Assembly: GCF_019916085.1 (NCBI RefSeq)
Contig: NZ_CP049834.1
Location: 465,501-529,500 of the forward strand
Reading direction: 5' to 3'
Source: Aquirufa lenticrescens
GTDB taxonomy: Bacteria > Bacteroidota > Bacteroidia > Cytophagales > Spirosomataceae
Length of the DNA: 64,000 nucleotides
Part shown: piece after piece, positions 679 to 2,860 of the stretch
How positions within the stretch are numbered: the first letter of the stretch is position 1
How the letters are laid out: every line of letters begins with the position of its first letter
Translations under genes and position numbers: made by a program
The notes under the pieces: model-generated
What the model saw: only the letters and a program-made list of their open reading frames with translations
Databases searched by the model: none
Told to the model about the DNA's origin: nothing

Positions 679-1536
679 TTATCCCTTAAGAATCCTCCCG
701 ATATCATTCGCCTTTCCTAATTCTTCTTTCAACTTTTCGTAGCTGCCAGAAAGCATCAGGCCTTTGTATTTCAACAGGGTGTTGATGTATTCGTCCAAAA
801 CGTCGAGCAGATTCTCCTGGTTCTGGTGGAAAATTTGGCTCCAGGTTTCTGGGGAAGATTTCGCTAGACGCACGGTCGATTCGAAACCGGTGGAGGCTAA
901 TTCAAAAATGCGGGCTTCGTTCTTTTCTTTCTCCAGTACGGTATTTGCCAAAGCAAAGGAACAGATGTGCGAGATGTGCGAAATATAGGCCGTGTGCATA
1001 TCGTGTTCGATAGAACCCATATAGATGAGGTTCATCTCTAAGCCACTGCGGTATAAATCTTCGATTAAAGCTACGGCAGTTGGGTCGCTGAGTTCTTTAT
1101 CGCAAATGACGCCTCTTTTTCCCACAAATAAGCCTTGAACAGCTGCTTCAGGGCCAGAGAATTCGGTTCCTGCCATCGGGTGAGTGGAAACGAATTGAGC
1201 TCTTTTCGGGTGATTTTGTAAAGCTTCGAAAACCGGGGTTTTCGTAGAACCTACCTCGATGATCACTTGTCCAGGTTTTAGCGCATCCAACACGGATGGA
1301 ATTAGCGCCACTAACAGATCAACTGGAATCGCGCAAACGAAGACGTCCACTTGATCGATGGCCTCTTGCCAAGTGGCGATGCGGTCGACTAGTCTTAAAG
1401 AGAGAGCCTTTTTCTGGTGTTCTGTATTCGTATCAATACCAATGATTTCGGAAGCCCAGCCACTCTTGCGAAGACCGAGTGCGATGGATCCACCTATTAA
1501 TCCGATACCGATGATGCCTACTTTAGGAGATGCCAT
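679..1536 (-). CDS. tyrA: Prephenate dehydrogenase
   Basis: NAD(P)-dependent prephenate (or arogenate) dehydrogenase of tyrosine biosynthesis, 285 residues, cytosolic. The N-terminus MASPKVGIIGIGLIGGS carries the Rossmann GxGxxG at residues 10-15. The STHPMAGTE motif around residue 120 contains the conserved histidine of the family, and the C-terminal half is the helical dimerisation region. No ACT or chorismate mutase domain is attached, so tyrosine feedback through an ACT domain is not expected. I chose the ATG at 1536; a longer reading from a TTG at 1560 only lengthens the overlap with the upstream gene. It overlaps the aminotransferase by 14 bases, so the two are surely cotranscribed, and both lie behind the tyrosine-rich leader at 2700-2860. 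Confidence 0.92.
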   Translation of the reverse strand: MASPKVGIIGIGLIGGSIALGLRKSGWASEIIGIDTNTEHQKKALSLRLVDRIATWQEAIDQVDVFVCAIPVDLLVALIPSVLDALKPGQVIIEVGSTKTPVFEALQNHPKRAQFVSTHPMAGTEFSGPEAAVQGLFVGKRGVICDKELSDPTAVALIEDLYRSGLEMNLIYMGSIEHDMHTAYISHISHICSFALANTVLEKEKNEARIFELASTGFESTVRLAKSSPETWSQIFHQNQENLLDVLDEYINTLLKYKGLMLSGSYEKLKEELGKANDIGRILKG

Positions 1537-2701
1537 TGCTGTGATTTTTGATGCGATCAATCGCTTGAGAGAAAACGGATTCTTGTGCGCAAAGTGAGAT
1601 GCGGATATAGCCGTCGCCTTGTGTTCCGAAGATTCCGCCCGGCGTAATGAACACCGCGTTTTCGTCTAATATTTTATCTGAGAGCGCGTAGCCGGAGTCG
1701 AATGTAGCTGGGATTTTGGCCCAAACAAACATGCCCGACTGTGCCGGATCATACACGCAATCGAGTAAATCCAATAATTCAAATACGAGTTTTTGGCGCG
1801 AACGGTAAATGCGATTCTGATTTGCAAACCACGCGCTGTCTGCAGAAAGAGCTTTAACTGCCGCCTGTTGCAAAGGCAAGAACATTCCAGAATCCATATT
1901 AGATTTGAACTTCAAAACTGGTGCTAGAAACTCTGCTTTCCCAAAGGCCGCCCCAATTCTCCAGCCCGCCATATTGTGGGACTTCGAAAGGGAATTTAAT
2001 TCGATCGCGACATCTTGCATCCCCGATATCGACAGCATACTCATTGGCTTTTCGTTCAGGATGAAGCTATAGGGGTTGTCATTGACTAATAAGATCGAAT
2101 GGCGAATAGCGAAGTCACGCAACTCCGTGAAGAATTCCACCGTTGCTTGTGCACCGGTAGGCATGTGCGGGTAGTTGACCCACATGATTTTGACTTTGGA
2201 AAGATCACGCTTTTCTAAAGCTTTTAAATCAGGTAACCAACCAGTAGTGGCTGATAACTCATAGCTTTCCACCGTTGCACCCGCTAAAGAACAAGCTGCA
2301 GAATAAGTCGGGTAGCCTGGATTAGGGATTAAGGTCACATCGCCTTGTTCTAAATAGGCCATGGCGATGTGCATGATACCTTCTTTGGAACCAATCAAGG
2401 GTAAAATTTCTGAAGCGGGATTAACCGTTACGCCGTAATGCTTCGCATAAAATGAGGCGAATGCCTCGCGTAAAGCAGGAATACCTTGGTAACCTTGGTA
2501 AGCGTGATGTGAAGGGTTAGCCGCGCTTTCTGTCAAGGCCGTGATGGTCTCAGACGATGGGGCTAAGTCAGGAGATCCGATACCTAGGTTAATGATAGGT
2601 ACGCCGGATTCCTTTAAAGCCGCGATCTGCTTCAGTTTCTTAGAGAAATAGTATTCCTCCACGCTGTTTAAGCGGCTCGCCGCTGTGATGTGTAAGCTCA
2701 T
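1523..2701 (-). CDS. PLP-dependent aminotransferase, probably aromatic amino acid (tyrosine) aminotransferase
   Basis: Fold-type I (class I/II) aminotransferase of 392 residues. The PLP lysine is K240 in SLSKSHNMAGWRIG, with the R248 that follows. N176 in NYPHMPTG, D208 and Y211 are the other expected cofactor contacts. The fold resembles the LL-DAP/aspartate aminotransferase group, so sequence alone does not fix the substrate. The overlap with tyrA and the Tyr-codon leader upstream point to conversion of 4-hydroxyphenylpyruvate to tyrosine (and perhaps phenylpyruvate to phenylalanine). The ATG at 2701 was chosen over a TTG at 2743 because the longer reading would translate through the terminator hairpin. 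The ATG lies two bases after the hairpin's T-run. Confidence 0.85.
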   Translation of the reverse strand: MSLHITAASRLNSVEEYYFSKKLKQIAALKESGVPIINLGIGSPDLAPSSETITALTESAANPSHHAYQGYQGIPALREAFASFYAKHYGVTVNPASEILPLIGSKEGIMHIAMAYLEQGDVTLIPNPGYPTYSAACSLAGATVESYELSATTGWLPDLKALEKRDLSKVKIMWVNYPHMPTGAQATVEFFTELRDFAIRHSILLVNDNPYSFILNEKPMSMLSISGMQDVAIELNSLSKSHNMAGWRIGAAFGKAEFLAPVLKFKSNMDSGMFLPLQQAAVKALSADSAWFANQNRIYRSRQKLVFELLDLLDCVYDPAQSGMFVWAKIPATFDSGYALSDKILDENAVFITPGGIFGTQGDGYIRISLCAQESVFSQAIDRIKNHSNGIS

Positions 2702-2703
2702 AA

Positions 2704-2730
2704 AACAAAAAACCGACGTAAAGTCGGCTG
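2704..2730 (-). terminator. Attenuator terminator of the aminotransferase-tyrA operon
   Basis: On the minus strand CCGAC (2727-2723) pairs with GTCGG (2717-2713) around a TTTAC loop, and G-T/A-T pairs can extend the stem. A T-run (TTTTTTGTTTT) follows immediately and ends at the aminotransferase ATG. It lies between a tyrosine-rich leader ORF and the structural genes, so it terminates the leader rather than the operon. An alternative antiterminator pairing competes for the CCGA arm. Confidence 0.75.
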
Positions 2731-2759
2731 ATATAATTGACAAAAAACTATATAACCGA
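2724..2759 (-). promoter_or_regulatory. Antiterminator hairpin alternative to the attenuator
   Basis: TCGG (2759-2756) can pair with CCGA (2727-2724), and ATATA (2753-2749) with TATAT (2735-2731), leaving a small internal loop. This stem uses the 5' arm of the terminator, so the two structures exclude each other. The TCGG arm begins one base after the leader stop codon. A ribosome that reaches the stop would cover it, whereas one stalled on the Tyr codons would leave it free. Confidence 0.6.
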
Positions 2760-2825
2760 TTAGGCAGCGTTGTAATAACCTGCGTAATAATACCCTGTTG
2801 TATAGTTGATTGCGTGTGATTTCAT
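2760..2825 (-). CDS. Tyrosine-rich leader peptide (attenuation)
   Basis: An ATG at 2825 opens 21 codons closed by TAA at 2762-2760. Six of the 21 residues are tyrosine, clustered in NYTTGYYYAGYYN; there is no phenylalanine or tryptophan. The ATG is four bases after a full-consensus -7 box, so the mRNA may start at the start codon. The stop is followed at once by the antiterminator arm, then the terminator, then the aminotransferase-tyrA genes. The inferred role is to sense charged tRNA-Tyr: fast translation favours the terminator, and stalling on Tyr codons favours readthrough into tyrosine biosynthesis genes. Confidence 0.85.
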   Translation of the reverse strand: MKSHAINYTTGYYYAGYYNAA

Positions 2826-2829
2826 ATGC

Positions 2830-2860
2830 CAAAGGTAGGAAAAAATTACTTTTATGCAAA
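2830..2860 (-). promoter_or_regulatory. Bacteroidota-type promoter of the Tyr leader-aminotransferase-tyrA operon
   Basis: On the minus strand TTTG (2860-2857), 19 bases, then TACCTTTG (2837-2830) is an exact match to the phylum's -33 TTTG / -7 TAnnTTTG promoter. The -33 element overlaps the last codons of recX, so the operon has its own transcription start. The start should fall at or next to the leader ATG at 2825. Confidence 0.82.

Follow-up and report, generated by a model that had tools for sequence, protein, structure and literature searches.

The short Tyr-rich open reading frame (ORF) upstream of the aminotransferase and tyrA genes belongs, in all likelihood, to a ribosome-mediated transcription attenuator that is specific for tyrosine, and it very probably serves as a tyrosine gauge for these two tyrosine-making genes. 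The element lies in the window, i.e. the whole 64-kb stretch of DNA that was analysed, in a 2.5-Mb Spirosomaceae genome. Its parts, their conservation and covariation, and the switch geometry were computed.

Architecture of the element

The element has a size of about 120 nt, most of which is ORF (Table 1). As the preliminary description had claimed, the minus strand carries a promoter of the form TTTG-N19-TACCTTTG, followed by a 21-codon ORF with six Tyr codons and neither Phe nor Trp codons. The first base of arm 2 (2759) directly adjoins the stop codon of this leader, and an intrinsic terminator is present between the leader ORF and the first structural gene. Likewise in agreement with the earlier reading, the CCGA of arm 3 doubles as the 5' arm of the terminator. 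The T run of the terminator ends five bases 5' of the aminotransferase ATG (2701-2699). Folding gave -10.6 kcal/mol for the antiterminator formed by arms 2 and 3, and the fold of 2701-2829 was more stable than that of shuffled sequences (z -2.3).

Table 1. Positions of the attenuator parts and the neighbouring genes in the window.
Feature	Position	Strand	Remarks
recX	3304-2852	minus	directly upstream, same strand as leader
-33 promoter element TTTG	2857..2860	minus	overlaps recX 3' end; Bacteroidetes sigma-A consensus as in PMC7366714
-7 promoter element TACCTTTG	2830..2837	minus	ends 4 bases before leader ATG
Leader peptide ORF MKSHAINYTTGYYYAGYYNAA	2760..2825	minus	21 codons, stop TAA 2762-2760; sequence; kept in 58/58 orthologues
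Arm 2, antiterminator 5' arm, TCGGTTATATAGTT	2746..2759	minus	begins TCGGTTATATAG; folding; covariation
Arm 3, antiterminator 3' arm, AATTATAT-C-AGCCGA	2724..2738	minus	folding; covariation
Intrinsic terminator CCGAC-TTTAC-GTCGG (2727-2713), then T6 (2712-2707)	2707..2727	minus	sequence, folding, covariation
Class I/II aminotransferase, 392 aa	1523..2701	minus	probably the aromatic aminotransferase acting in tyrosine synthesis
tyrA, prephenate dehydrogenase lacking an ACT domain	679..1560	minus	overlaps aminotransferase gene

TyrA consists of the PDH_N and PDH_C domains only, which bears out the earlier statement that it has no ACT domain. The aminotransferase is 97% identical to its counterpart in Aquirufa antheringensis; of the protein models, only those for LL-diaminopimelate aminotransferase matched it, and they did so below the cut-off.

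Conservation of the leader peptide

We compared the regions upstream of 58 orthologous aminotransferases with more than 60% identity, which came from about nine genera including Aquirufa, Flectobacillus, Arcicella, Pseudarcicella, and Siphonobacter. The leader was kept in all 58 cases, with 4-8 Tyr, 0-2 Phe, and no Trp codons, and so was an arm 2 that competes with the terminator. The Tyr codons were TAT (190) and TAC (161), and in 48 of the 58 leaders the last of them starts 12-15 nt before the stop codon. Examples are MNSHAINYLTGYYYAGYYNAA from Aquirufa, MNNSANTYRTYYYYYAQ from Arcicella, and MATILYTASYYYYYANA from Siphonobacter, and the range ends with MSFFNNSYRYYYSIK. Synonymous versus amino-acid substitutions numbered 14 versus 23 in the Tyr columns and 31 versus 103 in the other columns, counts that are too small to lean on. 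No leader was found upstream of the Spirosoma-type orthologues, which share about 50% identity.

The same attenuator could in principle respond more broadly, either to the general supply of aromatic amino acids or to the translation rate near the stop codon. Ancestral leaders carry both Phe and Tyr codons, and one or two Phe codons persist in about half of the Tyr-only leaders, mostly near the N terminus. Nevertheless, Phe is absent from 30 of the 58 leaders and Trp from all of them, and the control run near the stop codon is nearly pure Tyr, so that we regard such a broader sensor as improbable.

Direct sensing of tyrosine or of uncharged tRNA-Tyr by a T-box, a riboswitch, or a protein-binding leader, with the ORF being incidental, is very unlikely. 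This possibility derives from the tyrosine genes of Firmicutes, which use T-boxes, as listed for tyrosine in a 2005 survey (PMC1262725). At the gathering score, however, no Rfam family matched the window or 12 related loci, neither the T-box with its consensus and fold nor the amino-acid leader families (Phe, Trp, His, Leu, Thr, and others), and a permissive threshold applied to 2600-2900 yielded only sub-threshold chance matches. Moreover, the small element is mostly coding, and its 5' half conserves Tyr codons and not a fold.

We give hardly any weight to the view that the hairpin is the plain terminator of recX and that the Tyr-rich frame arose by chance. It is true that recX is the next gene upstream in the window and most relatives, with the same orientation, and that the hairpin is a standard terminator, but a promoter is situated between recX and the hairpin, and in several orthologues in which recX is not adjacent, leader and hairpin are still found before the aminotransferase gene. 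Chance also does not account for Tyr codons and arm 2 being retained without exception. The window contains one ATG-initiated ORF that is 10-30 codons long and includes five or more Tyr codons, compared to an expected 0.1 per 64 kb in Markov simulations with the same dinucleotide make-up, and a Tyr-rich ORF followed by a terminator occurred in none of 60 simulations. The two other matches to the Tyr-codon pattern in the genome are both inside long proteins. A small functional protein that is co-expressed with the tyrosine genes is just as hard to believe: the reading frame as such is retained from genus to genus, but the Tyr run near the stop is its one constant feature, while length (15-21 amino acids), N terminus, and non-Tyr residues are free to vary, and the Phe/Tyr leaders of other families are unrelated in sequence, though similar in composition and place.

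In the Arcicella group, tyrA is encoded elsewhere. A scan of the region upstream of the relocated tyrA found no leader there; the leader had remained with the aminotransferase gene and, by its position, would govern this gene alone. This counts against the main reading. That the leader stayed with the aminotransferase gene after tyrA had moved speaks for a role of the enzyme in tyrosine synthesis. The attenuator also supports the assignment of the enzyme to this pathway.

Covariation of the three arms

The arms were aligned in 22 distinct rows that were anchored by hand, since MAFFT applied to full leaders put the arms out of register. In these 22 arm sets, the antiterminator core was paired to 88.6% and the terminator to 90.9%, each with compensatory changes at 4 of 6 pairs, and on most measures only 0-3 of 500 shuffles matched this pairing and compensation. 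All three arms change together: they read TCGG/CCGA/GTCGG in the window, AATCGG/CCGATT/AATCGG at locus L053, and AGTAGG/CCTGCT/AGTAGG at locus L061. In an Aquirufa subgroup (L033-L038), the register is shifted such that GGCT pairs with AGCC, and this subgroup was scored partly unpaired in the pairing table. The antiterminator and the terminator are thus mutually exclusive structures with support from covariation, and the alignment that the preliminary description had proposed for aminotransferase-tyrA orthologues yielded both the conserved Tyr runs and the compensatory changes in the two hairpins.

Folding models of the switch

In the proposed mechanism, transcription would start at the leader ATG or one or two bases from it. 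With sufficient charged Tyr-tRNA, the ribosome would reach the stop codon and cover arm 2, arms 3 and 4 would form the terminator, and the aminotransferase gene and tyrA would remain untranscribed. When Tyr-tRNA is scarce, the ribosome would stall on the final Tyr codons and leave arm 2 free, which would then capture arm 3 while arm 4 is still to be made, so that RNA polymerase would read through.

We modelled these states with a ribosome footprint of 14 nt at the stop codon. In equilibrium folding, the terminator was the minimum-energy state in 58/58 cases with the ribosome at the stop. With a stalled ribosome and the whole free RNA, it still was in 55/58 for the last Tyr codon, decreasing to 25-26/58 for the third and fourth Tyr codons from the end. 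Equilibrium folding was not discriminating as a switch test, and a co-transcriptional snapshot was used instead, in which arm 3 has been made but arm 4 has not, with a threshold of at least 0.5 for the antiterminator probability. In this snapshot, the antiterminator formed in 57-58 of the 58 cases when the ribosome was stalled on one of the four final Tyr codons, whichever it was, and in only 11 when the ribosome had reached the stop codon. A point against the proposed switch is an Aquirufa subgroup whose arm 2 continued to pair in this model with the ribosome at the stop.

The snapshot model therefore suggests that the ribosome position decides which helix forms; the equilibrium model is less clear in this respect. 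As the terminator often wins at equilibrium despite a stalled ribosome, the order in which the helices arise during transcription must play a role, and read-through would rely on the antiterminator forming first. Such a dependence on the order of events is also known from other attenuators. The earlier proposal that tyrosine is sensed through the translation of Tyr codons stands with respect to the parts, the covariation, and the footprint model, which switches as predicted; the response to tyrosine itself is what we infer from them.

Start of the leader mRNA

Of 57 scorable Spirosomaceae leaders, 45 have a gap of 4-5 nt between the -7 box and the start codon, and five more reach a 4-base gap by means of an in-frame upstream ATG. 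In a second family, 8 of the 10 Tyr leaders have a gap of 4-5 bases as well, and the gap is variable in mixed Phe/Tyr leaders. Since the sigma-A -7 box spans -12 to -5 (PMC9723704), a 4-base gap places the start codon at +1. The start codon is thus probably positioned at +1 or +2, and the leader mRNA would be leaderless. Leaderless mRNAs are rare in the phylum, with 5.5% in one study (PMC9723704), and 5' UTRs of less than 10 nt amount to about 3.7% in another (PMC7366714). With the predicted 5'-terminal start codon, initiation on a leaderless mRNA would be one component of the sensor.

Relation to mixed Phe/Tyr leaders

The usual operon of the Bacteroidia has the order leader-pheA-aminotransferase-tyrA-DAHP synthase/chorismate mutase, and the leader of this undivided operon mixes Phe and Tyr codons, as in MKTTRFYFSFYFYPSHRGLAE. 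Such a mixed leader was present in 28 of 34 sampled aminotransferase-tyrA loci, with two more farther upstream, and in about 45 of 80 named loci, including those of Chitinophaga, Hymenobacter, Lewinella, and Flavobacteriaceae; the scan of named loci found no leader in Sphingobacteriaceae. The mixed leaders that were checked against Rfam had no match there. Across the Bacteroidia, these mixed leaders lie about 1 kb upstream of the aminotransferase gene, before pheA (loci L074-L113 and L189-L254). At one locus (L096, 7971 of the oriented locus), a Phe/Tyr leader SFYFYWFYF directly precedes a DAHP synthase-like gene and not pheA.

In Spirosomaceae, pheA is separate from the aminotransferase gene and longer (about 360 codons), with an N-terminal part resembling chorismate mutase. 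No leader was found before pheA among the nine Spirosomaceae loci listed, including that of the window's genome, or before the DAHP synthase-chorismate mutase gene in a scan of Spirosomaceae DAHP synthase loci. Tyr-only leaders occur where pheA has left the operon, and in a phylogenetic tree the corresponding aminotransferases form one clade (99/98) that is nested among the aminotransferases of Phe/Tyr operons, with the leader-free Spirosoma-type aminotransferases as a separate deep clade. The simplest reading of this pattern would be that the operon lost pheA once and the leader then lost its Phe codons. Read in this way, the Tyr-only leader descends from the Phe/Tyr leader that is widespread in the Bacteroidia, and has been respecialised.

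In the family of genome G211, a second set of Tyr leaders, of YYY type, was found before a stand-alone tyrA at 10 of 30 loci. Several YYY leaders at these loci (L255-L284) start with GTG, four bases 3' of the -7 box. We lean towards the view that Tyr-specific leaderless attenuators represent a new specificity class with at least two origins in the Bacteroidia, one of them being the shedding of Phe codons from an ancestral Phe/Tyr leader upon the departure of pheA. If true, this would be a natural evolutionary experiment in which the sensor loses its Phe codons when the Phe branch leaves the operon. The codons of a leader would then follow the gene content of the operon that it controls, and could be used to read it.

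Comparison with known attenuators

Leader-peptide attenuators are classically known from trp, his, leu, ilv, thr, and phe operons. The element described here resembles them in having a short ORF with cognate codons, an antiterminator and a terminator that compete, and read-through as the predicted consequence of stalling; it differs from them in its Tyr codons, its occurrence in Bacteroidota, its TAnnTTTG promoter, and the lack of a match to Rfam leader families. With the trp attenuators of Corynebacterium and Streptomyces (PMC1262725), which use Trp codons, it shares three mutually complementary arms that are used alternatively and lie 3' of a short ORF with regulatory codons. In the same survey, no RNA structures were found before actinobacterial tyrosine operons. 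As in the trpL attenuator of Sinorhizobium meliloti (PMC7298713), the RNA is predicted from the promoter spacing to begin with the leader ATG, whereas trpL responds through Trp codons and its actual 5' end has been reported.

Two studies touch on the same phylum. One of them (PMC1173090) lists in its Table 7, as a prediction by Merino, a putative attenuator before pheA-hisHb-aroA/aroQ-tyrA of Bacteroides thetaiotaomicron, i.e. at the orthologous, undivided operon; no leader peptide or amino-acid specificity is stated there, whereas our case concerns a split operon with a Tyr-only leader. For Flavobacterium psychrophilum, structured 5' regions were described, and leader-peptide attenuation was suggested upstream of amino-acid operons, but the main text names no tyrosine leader (PMC9723704). 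An incomplete literature search found no description of a tyrosine leader. The mechanism is a known one, of which this specificity and history seem to be undescribed, and tyrosine appears to join the amino acids that are sensed by leader-peptide attenuation. Our data also suggest that leader-peptide attenuation is widespread in Bacteroidota, where, with no Rfam model matching, it is hardly annotated.

Other leaders

As a positive control for the leader scan, we considered Trp and Ile/Leu/Val leaders. A Trp leader MTKATYNKNWWQG with a terminator precedes trpE in the window's own genome (L292 1317; G000:C1, about 261367), and relatives have the Trp leaders MTKTTYNKNWWQG (L290) and MTTNFKNTAWWWQLTNVG (L291) before trpE. 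Leaders rich in Ile, Leu, and Val, also with terminators, were found before ilvD in two related genera (MLQNSVNIIVVLILLC at L293 1179 and MAQFVLNISVIILLVLIRTSV at L296 1105). No leaders were detected before hisG or thrA in the four genomes scanned. The presence of Trp and Ile/Leu/Val leaders indicates that attenuation is an ordinary tool in Spirosomaceae. As a side aspect, a second tyrA homologue (L311; G052:C16, near base 1) is located just 3' of a short ORF MKNQEIELTEGLFTIEAEERLETIQMATDVAESCCVDDNGDIGFSLL, which is flanked by the near-repeated AACTTCTGGGG; the whole arrangement resembles a peptide natural-product cluster.
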